Positions 12,274-38,811 of a DNA stretch of 40,206 nt are shown here, in pieces; the stretch's first letter is position 1; the number at the start of each line of letters is the position of its first letter. A model generated the notes under the pieces. That model was not told the origin of the DNA, did no database searches, and worked only from the letters and a program-made list of their open reading frames with translations. Source of the DNA: Clostridiales bacterium GWF2_38_85. Its GTDB lineage: Bacteria; Bacillota; Clostridia; Oscillospirales; CAG-382. The DNA is taken from contig MGOY01000005.1 in NCBI GenBank assembly GCA_001797275.1, forward strand, positions 1-40,206. The letters are read 5' to 3'. A program made the translations under genes and the position numbers.

Positions 12274-13191
12274 GTGGTTAAGCTTGATATAATTCTGAAT
12301 GATTTATATCTTCTGCTGCTTATTATGGAACAGATGACATTTAACATTGAACTCGATGGTAATAAGGATTTTGTTATTCAAAGAACCATAGTGGTCCCAT
12401 GCGATATTTTTATCGGTACTCAAATGCAATTAATATATATATATAATGGGTATGCCGATTTTTTATTATGCGGAAACAAGTTTAGATTAAATAAAAATAA
12501 TTATATTGTTTTAGACAGAACCTTGCCATTTAGGATTGATGAAGCATATCAATGTGATGCTGTTGTTATCAGATTCAACGCTGAGTTTCTAAATTGTGAA
12601 TACAAATCGATAAATACTTTCAGAGATTTACTAAATAATTATCCACAGGATACAGAACGGATTTATCATATAAGTTCAGAATATTGCCGCTTTTTCAACG
12701 ATAATGATGGCAGAGTTGAAACCCTAATAGATAACCTTTTATCCGAATACATTATCGGAAACACAGGTTCAAAAGCAGCAGTAAAGGCTTTATTAACACT
12801 GATTATTCTTGACATTTTACGACAGCTTCAAAATAGTCGGATAATACTGAGTTCAGATATTTCATATGTTATTGAGATGATTGCAACAGATTATAATAAT
12901 GATATTTTTTTAAATAAACTGGCACATGATCTTAATATGAAAAAAGAACAATTAAGCAAGAAATTTTTATCAGAATGTAATTTGAATTACATTGATTATC
13001 TTCAAATGTTGCGAATTGACAAAGCATGCACATTACTTGCTGATACAAAGATGAGTATAAGCGATATTTCAAGAGGAATAGGTTATGAAAATGTCGGATA
13101 TTTTATCGGACTTTTCATAAGAATAAAAGGATTAAGACCTGCAGAATACAGATTTATATATAGTGATAGCAAAGGGAAGGGCACACCATGA
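12274..13191 (+). CDS. AraC family transcriptional regulator
   Basis: Up to 305 residues. The C-terminal 100 form a two-HTH AraC domain: IFLNKLAHDLNMKKEQLSKKF (first HTH), then MSISDISRGIGYENVGYF and the closing GLRPAEYR. The N-terminal part (PCDIFIGTQMQLIYIYNGYA, RLNKNNYIVLDRTLPF) looks like a cupin sensor domain. The ligand is unknown; sugars are typical. The start is uncertain: GTG 12274 sits too close to GAAGGG, and ATG 12325 has no visible site. The stop overlaps the next gene's ATG (ATGA), so the two are translationally coupled. Confidence 0.88.
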   Translation: MVKLDIILNDLYLLLLIMEQMTFNIELDGNKDFVIQRTIVVPCDIFIGTQMQLIYIYNGYADFLLCGNKFRLNKNNYIVLDRTLPFRIDEAYQCDAVVIRFNAEFLNCEYKSINTFRDLLNNYPQDTERIYHISSEYCRFFNDNDGRVETLIDNLLSEYIIGNTGSKAAVKALLTLIILDILRQLQNSRIILSSDISYVIEMIATDYNNDIFLNKLAHDLNMKKEQLSKKFLSECNLNYIDYLQMLRIDKACTLLADTKMSISDISRGIGYENVGYFIGLFIRIKGLRPAEYRFIYSDSKGKGTP

Positions 13192-24048: not shown

Positions 24049-24852
24049 ATGAAAATAGGACTTATTTCCGATTCTCTGCGTCTTGATTTCAAATCATCAG
24101 TAGAAAAGGCTGCATCTCTCGGGGTTACCGGCATACAAAAGTACTTAGTAAACGGTGAATTTGATCCATACAATATGACAAAAGCGAAGATTGTTGAAGT
24201 TAAGAATATTATGAATTCAACCGGTCTGGTTTTCTCAGCAATATGCGGTGATTTCGGTATTGATTTCGATAATGTCGAGCAAAAAGAATTTATAATTACA
24301 AAATCTAAAAAAATACTCGATATTGCAAAGGAACTTGATTGTAATATCGTAACCACACACATCGGTCATATTGAAGATGATGAAAGTAAACGTATGGAGC
24401 TTCTTCGTGCAACAGCTTCAGAGCTTGCGGTATATGCTGACAGCATCGGTTCATATTTTGCTGCTGAAACAGGCACGGAGAAGGCACCTGTACTTAAGAA
24501 GTTCCTTGATTCGCTCGGAGCAAAAGGTCTTCGTATTAATTATGACCCGGCAAACCTGGTTATGGTTGCTGGCGATGACCCTGTAAAGGGTGTTCACATA
24601 TTGAAGGATTACATTGTTCATACACATGCTAAAGATGGTATAAAGACAGGAGATAAAACATTTCTTGAGGTGCCGCTCGGAACCGGCGGTGTGGATTTTG
24701 ATGAGTATCTTAAAGCACTCAATACAATAGGTTATACAGGATATCTTACAATAGAACGCGAAGTCGGTGAAACACCTGCAGCTGATATTAAACTTGCATT
24801 TGACTTTCTTATTGAAAAGCTTACGAAATTGAATATTTCGTACGAAAAATAA
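24049..24852 (+). CDS. sugar phosphate isomerase/epimerase (xylose isomerase-like TIM barrel)
   Basis: 267 residues from ATG 24049 (GGAAGGG about 11 nt upstream). It belongs to the AP-endonuclease-2 TIM-barrel family: MKIGLISDSLRLDFKSSVEKA; ICGDFGIDF; NIVTTHIGHI (metal His); AAETGTEK (metal Glu); INYDPANLVM (Asp); HTHAKDG (His); YLTIEREVGETP (final Glu). These metal ligands are all present, so it is probably active. Members isomerise or epimerise sugars or cleave inosose; the substrate here is not evident. The neighbour is a nucleotidase, giving no pathway hint. Confidence 0.9.
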   Translation: MKIGLISDSLRLDFKSSVEKAASLGVTGIQKYLVNGEFDPYNMTKAKIVEVKNIMNSTGLVFSAICGDFGIDFDNVEQKEFIITKSKKILDIAKELDCNIVTTHIGHIEDDESKRMELLRATASELAVYADSIGSYFAAETGTEKAPVLKKFLDSLGAKGLRINYDPANLVMVAGDDPVKGVHILKDYIVHTHAKDGIKTGDKTFLEVPLGTGGVDFDEYLKALNTIGYTGYLTIEREVGETPAADIKLAFDFLIEKLTKLNISYEK

Positions 24853-24863
24853 TTATAATTAAT

Positions 24864-24884
24864 TCGGGAGCATTTTGCTCCCGA
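24864..24884 (+). terminator. hairpin terminator
   Basis: A perfect 9-bp GC-rich stem (TCGGGAGCA / TGCTCCCGA) with a TTT loop, 12 nt past the stop at 24852. The downstream T-run is weak (TAACCTTAT). Confidence 0.75.
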
Positions 24885-24967
24885 TAACCTTATCTATATT
24901 TTGATGTAATGTTTAATAATGACGGAAAGTAATTAGGTTGAACAAAATTAAATTGAAGGGAGGGCGT

Positions 24968-25033
24968 ATGTGTTGCAACAATTTTTTCATGCTTCTATGT
25001 ATGCGAAATTGCATGCAGCATCATGCTGCTTGA
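24968..25033 (+). CDS. 21-residue Cys-rich leader peptide of pncB
   Basis: ATG 24968 has the strongest ribosome site of the region, GGGAGGG, a few nt upstream. Its 21 codons (MCCNNFFMLLCMRNCMQHHA, then A) end at TGA 25031-25033, one base before the pncB ATG (TGA-A-ATG). It contains four Cys, four further Met-type residues and a His pair. pncB has no ribosome site of its own, so its translation probably depends on this ORF. A hairpin GCAGCA-TCA-TGCTGC (25015-25029) covers the last codons. Confidence 0.6.
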   Translation: MCCNNFFMLLCMRNCMQHHAA

Positions 25034-25034
25034 A

Positions 25035-26456
25035 ATGAATAAAGCGTTAATTTGTGATTATAACAATTTAATAATGGCAAATGCTTATTATAAAAGCGGA
25101 AAATATAGTGAAAAAGCATATTTTGATGCTTTTTTCAGACGAGTTCCGGATGGTGGAGGTTATATAATTTTTTCTGGTCTCGAGAGTATTATTGATTTTG
25201 TCAAGAAAATGAAATTTGATGAAACTGCTATAAAACAGCTCAAACAAATCGGCGATTTTGATTTTGAATTTCTGAATTATCTTCGAAAATTTAAATTTTC
25301 AGGGGATATATATGCTGTTCCCGAAGGTACACCTGTGTTTCCGAACGAGCCGGTTATTACAGTATATGCACCGATAATTGAAGCATTGTTGCTTGAAACC
25401 TATATTCTTATCTCAATAAACCACCAGTCATCTATATCAACAAAAGCAAGCAGAATTACAAGAGCAGCTGATGGAAGGCATATAATTGACTTCTCTGCAA
25501 GAAAATCTCATGGTATCCATGCAGCATACAACGGTGCAAGGGCAGCGTATATCGGAGGGTTTAACACAACAAACAATACTCTTGCCATTGTGGATTCCGG
25601 AATACCGCATACAGGTCATATGTCTCATTCCTGGGTCCAGATGTTCGATAATGAATACGAGGCGTTTAAGAAATACTGTGAATTATGCCCCGAAACTCCC
25701 GAACTTCTTGTTGACACATACAATGTACTGACAAGCGGTATTCCAAATGCCATAAAAGTAATAACAGAGTATCTTATTCCTCAAGGCAAAAATAATTATT
25801 CAATCAGACTTGATTCAGGTGATATAACATACCTATCAAAAAAGGCACGAAAGTTGCTCGACGATGCGGGATTATACGAATGTAAAATAACAGCATCAAA
25901 CCAGCTTGATGAATATATCATAAGAGACATACTCTTGCAGGGCGCGAAGATTGATAACTTTATTGTCGGTGAGCATTTGACAAAAATAAACAAGGACAGC
26001 TCTATGGGAGCAGTTTATAAGCTTGTTGCGGTTGAGAAAAACAATGAGATTGTTCCAAAAATAAAGAGAAGCGAAAATGCTTCAAAAATACCTAATCCTC
26101 ATTACAAAAAATTTTATCGTCTGTTCGATAACGAAAGCAGTAAAGCTATAGCGGATCTGCTTTGTGTATATGACGAAGCAATAAATCCGAATAATCCTTT
26201 GGTTATATTTGATTCAGATTTTACCTGGAAGCAGAAAACATTGGTTGATTTTACAACCGTAGATATGCAAAAGACAATATTTAAAGAAGGGAAGTGCATC
26301 TATAAAACACCTGATGCATCTGAAATCCGTGAATATTGCAAGGAACAAACAGAATTGTTGTGGGATGAGGTCAAAAGATTTGAAAATCCTCATAATTATT
26401 ATATAGATTTATCGAGAAGATTATGGAACATTAAAAATGCATTGTTAAAAATGTAA
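25035..26456 (+). CDS. pncB: nicotinate phosphoribosyltransferase
   Basis: 473 residues from ATG 25035. It makes nicotinate mononucleotide from nicotinate and PRPP (ATP-stimulated) in NAD salvage. Landmarks: DYNNLIMANAYYKSG (family TD.Y.LTMA..Y), FDAFFRRVPDGGGYIIF, PEGTPVFPNEP, DFSARKSHG (the R/K-rich active site with the His that is phosphorylated), GGFNTTNN, GIPHTGHMSHSW, VDTYN, SIRLDSGD and ITASNQLDEY. An in-frame ATG at 25023 adds four residues but has no site either; translation is probably coupled to the leader ORF. Confidence 0.94.
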   Translation: MNKALICDYNNLIMANAYYKSGKYSEKAYFDAFFRRVPDGGGYIIFSGLESIIDFVKKMKFDETAIKQLKQIGDFDFEFLNYLRKFKFSGDIYAVPEGTPVFPNEPVITVYAPIIEALLLETYILISINHQSSISTKASRITRAADGRHIIDFSARKSHGIHAAYNGARAAYIGGFNTTNNTLAIVDSGIPHTGHMSHSWVQMFDNEYEAFKKYCELCPETPELLVDTYNVLTSGIPNAIKVITEYLIPQGKNNYSIRLDSGDITYLSKKARKLLDDAGLYECKITASNQLDEYIIRDILLQGAKIDNFIVGEHLTKINKDSSMGAVYKLVAVEKNNEIVPKIKRSENASKIPNPHYKKFYRLFDNESSKAIADLLCVYDEAINPNNPLVIFDSDFTWKQKTLVDFTTVDMQKTIFKEGKCIYKTPDASEIREYCKEQTELLWDEVKRFENPHNYYIDLSRRLWNIKNALLKM

Positions 26457-37675: not shown

Positions 37676-37790
37676 AGCAGAGTAAGGATAAACGCGTTAA
37701 GTGTGGTCTGAACGGGGAGTTGTCAGACTGACGAAAATCAATTAACAATATCGTTGATTGTTTGCGGTGTATATCCTGCATCCCGCTGCT
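37676..37790 (+). ncRNA. tetrahydrofolate (THF) riboswitch
   Basis: Conserved THF-I aptamer segments are present in order: GCGTTAAGTG (37694-37703), GGTGTA (37766-37771) and CCTGCATCC (37775-37783). Pairings: P1 AGCAG / CTGCT (37676-37680 with 37786-37790), P2 AGGATA / TATCCT (37685-37690 with 37772-37777), arm GTCTG / CAGAC (37706-37710 with 37724-37728), another arm AATCAA / TTGATT (37736-37741 with 37754-37759), and a loop-3 pseudoknot CGGG with CCCG (37713-37716, 37782-37785). The class senses reduced folates and lowers folate transport or synthesis; the gene downstream is folT. Confidence 0.93.
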
Positions 37791-37908: not shown

Positions 37909-38811
37909 TTGCGCACGAAATATAGTGAAATATTAAAGAAAATTACTATCTCGGCACTCTTTCTCGCATTTGCTCTTGTTATTAAAACACTGTTTTCATT
38001 CTATATTCCAATTTTCGGAGCAAACGGAATGAGAGTAAGCTTTGATAGAATTTTTACTGTTTTCCCTGCAATATTATTTGGTCCGATTTACGGAGCAATT
38101 GTCGGAGGTCTCTCGGATTTTCTTGGATGGGTTTTTAAACCGCAAGGTGCTTATATCCCGTGGCTTACATTGACGGCAATGCTTGGAGGTTTTCTGCAAG
38201 GCTTGATATGGAAACTAATAAGGAAAAAGAAAAACGAACCTTTGAAAATTGTAGTAGTTCTAATTTTTGCAATTGTAGGTATTTTGGGTATTATCAATCA
38301 TCTGGCATTAAATAGTGATAAATTAATTCAAGGTTTCTATGCAATCCAATCAACAACGGTAACTAAGGATGTTGCAACACAGATGTTGGGAAAAGGTGAG
38401 CTTTCACCAATCTCATCTCTTGTGGTAAGTCTTGCTCAATATACATCTGCTGAAGCATATCAAGCAAAACTGGCATTGTATTGTAATATGCTCACCATTG
38501 GATTAGAAGCTTTATCATTGATCTGTTTAGTAATTCTGGTGCTTGATAAATTGATAAAAGACACGGGAAAAATTAAAAAATCAGGGTATTTTCTCAAATT
38601 TATTGTTACAATGATAATAACAGGCATTACTATCACAACATTAAATACACAGATATTGAAAATTTATTTGCCTGCTTTGGCTGATAGAGCATTTGTACTT
38701 TTCTGGATTCCGAGACTGATTGAAGAAATAATTAGCTGTTCTATACAAGCATATATCGTATCGCTATTATTTACAGTATACATCAACAGAATAGCTCCAA
38801 AAGAAATTTAA
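37909..38811 (+). CDS. folT: folate ECF transporter substrate-binding component
   Basis: 300 residues from TTG 37909 (AAGGGGG 7 nt upstream). About six to seven membrane helices. The folate-family S-component pattern is clear at the N-terminal half: ALVIKTLFSFYIPIFGANGMRVSFDRIFTVFPAILFGP (shown here only as landmarks IPIFGANGMRVSF and FPAILFGPIYGA), GLSDFLGWVFKPQGAYIPW. It captures folate and works with the shared EcfAA'T module encoded elsewhere. Longer than the usual 170-190 residues owing to an insert (about 105-190) between helices. Riboswitch and folC on either side confirm the substrate. Confidence 0.92.
   Translation: MRTKYSEILKKITISALFLAFALVIKTLFSFYIPIFGANGMRVSFDRIFTVFPAILFGPIYGAIVGGLSDFLGWVFKPQGAYIPWLTLTAMLGGFLQGLIWKLIRKKKNEPLKIVVVLIFAIVGILGIINHLALNSDKLIQGFYAIQSTTVTKDVATQMLGKGELSPISSLVVSLAQYTSAEAYQAKLALYCNMLTIGLEALSLICLVILVLDKLIKDTGKIKKSGYFLKFIVTMIITGITITTLNTQILKIYLPALADRAFVLFWIPRLIEEIISCSIQAYIVSLLFTVYINRIAPKEI

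Follow-up and report, generated by a model that had tools for sequence, protein, structure and literature searches.

How is pncB translated when the only good Shine-Dalgarno sequence found ahead of it, as judged by duplex energy with the 16S tail, lies about 60-70 bases 5′ of its start and in front of another reading frame? The gene sits in a 40,206-nucleotide stretch of DNA from Clostridiales bacterium GWF2_38_85 (contig MGOY01000005.1), the whole of which is referred to here as the window, and it is preceded by a YfbR-like HD gene and then a xylose-isomerase-like TIM-barrel gene, both assigned with Pfam. Its product, nicotinate phosphoribosyltransferase, is a salvage enzyme for vitamin B3; it matches the Pfam families NAPRTase_N and NAPRTase_C and, with a score above the family cut-off, NCBIfam NF006695. 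The leader and gene comprise the following features:

24864..24884, with a terminator score only when read on the - strand: terminator-like hairpin (inverted repeat) between the TIM-barrel gene and the pncB leader
24957..24964, + strand: strong Shine-Dalgarno sequence AGGGAGGG, core GGAGG at 24959-24963, duplex energy -12.1 kcal/mol
24966..25026, + strand: long predicted hairpin over nearly the whole upstream ORF, -22.5 kcal/mol, reaching 24964/25029 in some folds
24968..25033, + strand: small upstream ORF (uORF) MCCNNFFMLLCMRNCMQHHAA, 21 codons, four of them Cys, stop codon TGA at 25031-25033
25015..25029, + strand: 6-bp inverted repeat (25015-25020 / 25024-25029), predicted to form only if the upstream arm is occupied
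25023..25025, + strand: first ATG of the pncB frame (MLLEMNKALICDY), within the uORF and the hairpin, the start favoured by homology
25035..25037, + strand: second ATG of the pncB frame, one base past the uORF stop and outside the hairpin
25023..26456, + strand: pncB, identified with Pfam and NCBIfam profiles

The original prediction held that pncB translation appears to depend on this Cys-rich frame, which could link NAD salvage to the passage of ribosomes through Cys or Met codons or to a ligand. Its layout is sound: every coordinate was verified for a 21-codon, four-Cys ORF that owns the sole good site and whose stop is separated by one base from the ATG at 25035. It did not include the ATG at 25023, which shares the pncB frame and lies eight bases before the uORF stop. 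Relatives were drawn from the relatives', family and order genomes and a GTDB contig collection. With the window and two duplicates set aside, the 121 loci gathered give 118 relatives, none of which exceeds about 60% identity to the window pncB in protein sequence. Ten residues precede the conserved xD[FY] motif when counted from ATG 25023 and six when counted from ATG 25035; among the relatives this distance is most commonly 9 (39/118), nearly as often 10 (37/118), and 6 in a single case. N-terminal length thus appears to favour 25023 over 25035.

Neither ATG has a usable site of its own, with duplex energies of -0.1 (ATG 25023) and +1.2 (ATG 25035) against -12.1 at the uORF. In all 118 relatives the best pncB start scores -3.5 kcal/mol or better, although the five weakest (-3.5 to -4.0 kcal/mol) are weak sites; an exact Shine-Dalgarno match spans at least four bases in 115 of them and only three bases in the other three. 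Strong short ATG uORFs ending near pncB occur in four relatives, with 0 or 1 Cys each, and in all four pncB retains a site of -8.1 or better. Under looser rules, which admit TTG or GTG starts and 4-base sites, many more frames are listed before the relatives' pncB. Frames of 27 codons with two Cys (L050) and 45 codons with three Cys (L112) end 1-2 bases before pncB; both are longer than the window uORF, are not Cys-rich and have pncB's own site beside them. The window pncB is therefore an outlier for its absent site, and abutting frames per se are not rare.

Within the window, 37 of the 38 main ORFs have an exact Shine-Dalgarno match of at least four bases at a start somewhere within their first 60 codons; 12274-13191 is the one without. 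The pncB match is implausible, belonging to an ATG 17 codons in, where the sequence is already conserved; this leaves 36/38. No pncB match was found in the assembly of the genus mate; its contig ends inside the yfbR-like gene, and the absence may thus be an assembly gap. Near that contig end (L191:1-60), on the other side of the yfbR-like gene, we noted by eye a murE-like reading.

We then set this arrangement against base rates in the same genome, sampling twenty 20-kb stretches together with the window, which gave 311 ORFs that are 150 codons or longer and have sufficient sequence ahead of them. A gene was scored as lacking a site if nothing fell below -4.5 at any start in its first 50 codons. 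This applies to 36 of the 311, and site absence alone accordingly proves little. In seven of the 311, a short, strongly sited ATG uORF in another frame ends close to a start, and pncB is the sole gene in both lists. Three of the other 35 site-less genes have a strongly sited ATG frame upstream, of 3 codons (L171:102), of 24 codons, running 29 bases into the gene (L171:17887), and of 94 codons (L176:16029). Multiplying the rates, we estimate that about 0.1 pncB-like case is expected per 38 genes if the two properties are independent; the combination of a missing site and a strong abutting uORF is uncommon yet reachable by chance. As a separate observation, L171:17841-18507 (contig C14 of this genome) is by eye a likely lipoprotein gene in which a strong Shine-Dalgarno sequence and ATG stand out of frame with the lipoprotein signal sequence, perhaps through a small indel near an A run, whether real or an assembly error.

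The leader is predicted to fold around the uORF. None of 200 shuffles of 24966-25026 is as stable (z -3.3, for a range picked after seeing the fold), and z falls to between -1.5 and -1.7 with flanks and to -0.48 for 131 bases. Windows of 61 bases reach this stability in 50 of 11,470 cases overall and in 21 of 4,212 at similar G+C. The outermost pair has a probability of 0.77-0.94 in three folding contexts. In the folded leader the Shine-Dalgarno sequence is 23-62% unpaired, the uORF ATG 4-12%, ATG 25023 1-4% and ATG 25035 45-87%. The 6-bp hairpin said to cover the uORF end is present as a repeat, but its pairing probability is about zero in three folds because 25015-25020 pairs with 24971-24976 instead. 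With a ribosome placed at the uORF start, near codon 5 or near Cys11, this hairpin is predicted at 0.66, 0.03 and 0.84, respectively, and a ribosome near Cys15 covers its left arm. ATG 25035 is open at 0.77, 0.44, 0.71 and 0.44 for the start, codon 5, Cys11 and Cys15. Across these four simulated positions we saw no on-off switch and no clear order.

It is plausible, and in our judgement likely, that pncB relies on the upstream site; our leading, though tentative, reading is that ribosomes reach pncB through coupling with the small ORF. The uORF has a strong site, its stop adjoins the downstream start, and that start is weakly sited. The own Shine-Dalgarno sequence of pncB would have been lost in this lineage, or never present. 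Ribosomes would load at 24957-24964, translate the 21-codon frame and, in doing so, open the predicted hairpin that masks ATG 25023. After termination at 25031-25033, a fraction would re-initiate in the pncB frame, either at the ATG 8 bases upstream or at the one 1 base downstream. The peptide sequence would be irrelevant, and the process ordinary translational coupling. ATG 25023 lies inside the uORF and is almost never unpaired in the predicted fold, so its use would require a ribosome traversing the uORF. Against coupling, the uORF ATG is 88-96% paired and the Shine-Dalgarno sequence only partly exposed, which should slow loading. A Shine-Dalgarno sequence near the stop, which would aid re-initiation, is absent. 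The arrangement is missing from all 118 relatives, and no homologue whose N-terminus is more than about 60% identical was found.

A single 30S subunit could instead start pncB directly, with the hairpin bridging the Shine-Dalgarno sequence and ATG 25035 as a split ribosome site and the uORF ATG, buried in the stem, hardly used; we regard this as possible but the less probable of the two. Core and ATG 25035 are separated by 71 bases in the sequence; with the hairpin formed, about 5-10 remain by hand count from the folds. In each of 1000 sampled structures a single helix brings the effective spacing to 3-12 bases; in shuffles (40 samples each) this property averages 13%, and 40/2000 reach the observed value, or 48/2000 when any number of helices is allowed. 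Adding the demand that site and ATG also be open gives 0.67, matched by 3/2000 shuffles. The predicted structures thus provide a workable spacing in a post hoc test, one designed after the fold was known; 2/3000 shuffles passed a stricter first version, which the observed sequence did not, owing to pairing of flanking bases. Distant Shine-Dalgarno sequences, 24-100 bases upstream, precede 7 of the 36 site-less and 16 of the 275 sited sampled genes, and a hairpin bridge occurs in one gene of each group (pncB among the site-less), which indicates that split sites are not a habit of this genome. Weighing further against the bridge are the drop in the z-score of the fold once flanks are included, the partial pairing of the Shine-Dalgarno sequence itself, and the start at 25035, which gives an N-terminus as short as that of only one of the 118 relatives. 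The split ribosome sites that we know of are in phage genes. Stop-start arrangements are far commoner in bacteria than split sites. For this reason, and with the homology-favoured start inside the uORF, we rank coupling first and the split site second. Our literature search on split ribosome sites matched only a review of phage T4, whose account of genes 38 and 25 supplies the precedent: structure between the Shine-Dalgarno sequence and the ATG gives a working distance, shortening the spacing from 22 to 5 and from 27 to 11 (PMC3014915). The pncB gap is much larger than these 22- and 27-base gaps, and its 61-base hairpin, which contains an ORF, is predicted only, whereas that account describes mutant evidence for the T4 sites and their conservation in closely related T-even phages (PMC3014915).

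The strong site and uORF may also be chance or relics, with pncB starting without a Shine-Dalgarno sequence through weak initiation or on a transcript that begins close to the ATG. This is unlikely in our judgement, even though site-less genes and strong short uORFs both recur in the genome sample (36 and 7 of 311) and such uORFs precede pncB in four relatives that keep a site of -8.1 or better: every one of the 118 relatives has a stronger pncB start than either ATG of the window gene, the 36 site-less genes probably include doubtful ORFs and mis-set starts, and a pattern scan that misses many promoters found no promoter-like match on the + strand within 24700-25200. A one-base indel, real or an assembly error, for instance in the T6 run at 24983-24988, might have split a frame running from ATG 24968 into pncB; we consider this the least probable of the readings. 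The uORF and pncB frames are one base apart, no stop interrupts the pncB frame as far upstream as 24957, and L171:17887 in the same genome offers a strong start out of frame with a signal that by eye resembles that of a lipoprotein. The fused protein would, however, carry about 28 residues before the motif, against 6-14 in 116 of the 118 relatives and 19 and 36 in the others, and the stretch is Cys-rich in both frames, unlike the relatives' N-termini that we inspected. Coupling and bridging might finally coexist as one site with two starts, the closed hairpin sending ribosomes directly to pncB and the open hairpin sending them through the uORF with coupling. We hold this to be rather improbable, a little above the indel.

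The regulatory part of the original prediction fared less well than its map. The uORF contains four Cys; 20,000 dinucleotide shuffles of codons 2-21 give 2.9 on average, and 33% of them reach four (p 0.33). Cys is present in all three frames of the stretch, and the pncB frame across it (CVATIFSCFYVCEIACSIMLL) is likewise full of Cys. CATGC and GCATGC repeats at 24988-25026 form much of the long hairpin; TGC and GCA motifs build its arms, and Cys codons would follow from them. Both the fold and the Cys codons may stem from these palindromes, and the uORF cysteines seem to be an accidental product of base composition. Among the 118 relatives, none of them above about 60% identity, there is no frame ending at pncB that combines an ATG start, a strong site and more than one Cys. 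By the refuting condition set with the original prediction, a frame that is not conserved, the regulatory reading is weakened within that range of identity. We found no Shine-Dalgarno sequence near pncB that a stalled ribosome could expose. Attenuation through Cys or Met codons is therefore rejected as unsupported, with the Cys count at expectation, no switchable element found and the frame not conserved in these relatives, and ligand sensing is not borne out by a leader without an Rfam family at threshold. What survives of the proposed reliance on the upstream region is the plausible dependence itself, for a gene without another site whose relatives all own one.

Two known arrangements invite comparison. 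The Cys-rich attenuator ORFs of mycobacteria, reportedly described by Canestrari et al. in 2020, resemble the pncB leader in placing a short Cys-containing frame ahead of a metabolic gene; they are said to combine runs of consecutive Cys codons with a downstream switch, unlike the pncB uORF, which has Cys at expectation, one CysCys pair and no switch that we could find. We know of no link between pncB and cysteine. In the Salmonella mgtQ-mgtB leader, as far as the account consulted goes, a short ORF likewise overlaps a stem-loop ahead of its target gene, and its translation opens the structure (PMC8092293). There, however, mgtQ frees a hidden mgtB ribosome site, whereas the pncB leader is without a second site, and the eight codons of mgtQ include functional Asp/Glu, whereas we found no codon signature in the pncB uORF (PMC8092293). 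A literature search on pncB with uORFs or leader peptides returned no pncB leader ORF among the matches listed.

Other origins for the leader were also considered. Covariance models detect no Rfam family in it at the gathering threshold, and the four matches at a loose threshold (E 0.11-3.4) each fall far under their gathering scores. Elsewhere in the window, a tetrahydrofolate (THF) riboswitch lies at 37676-37790 (+ strand, 80.6 bits), shortly 5′ of an ORF at 37909. A pattern scan predicts no terminator-like match on the + strand within 24700-25200. The leader occurs once in its genome, where other matches have E 0.03 or worse, and the searches turned up no close homologue of it; a repeated or mobile element is rejected. 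No relative was found on viral contigs. A tandem duplication of the start region is likewise rejected, its alignment score being reached by 257/1000 shuffles. The uORF peptide matches no Pfam family, and its best match outside the window in 63 family genomes has E 0.087. Searching the genome for a Met-Cys-Cys pattern (AGG, 3-8 bases, ATG, two Cys codons) gave 18 matches against 5 in a reversed control, two of the 18 overlapping at the uORF. Besides the uORF, two matches are strongly sited (-9.5 and -12.3), with 5 and 9 codons, and a genome family of Cys-starting short ORFs was dismissed, the 18 containing no second strongly sited frame longer than 9 codons. The same search picked up, on contig C32, a 47-codon frame with nine Cys and a moderate site of -6.5 (L139).

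The meaning of the locus depends on which reading holds. If one site serves two starts, folding, and hence temperature or transcription speed, would set vitamin B3 salvage, and a chromosomal metabolic gene would carry a split site much exceeding the T4 examples in length. If a ribosome crosses the 61-base hairpin with a competing ORF inside it, gene-finding tools and models of translation that check only about 5-15 bases ahead of a start would misread such genes. If coupling is plain, this would be one more small lineage-specific leader. Either way, Cys-rich short frames can arise from hairpin-building TGC/GCA motifs.
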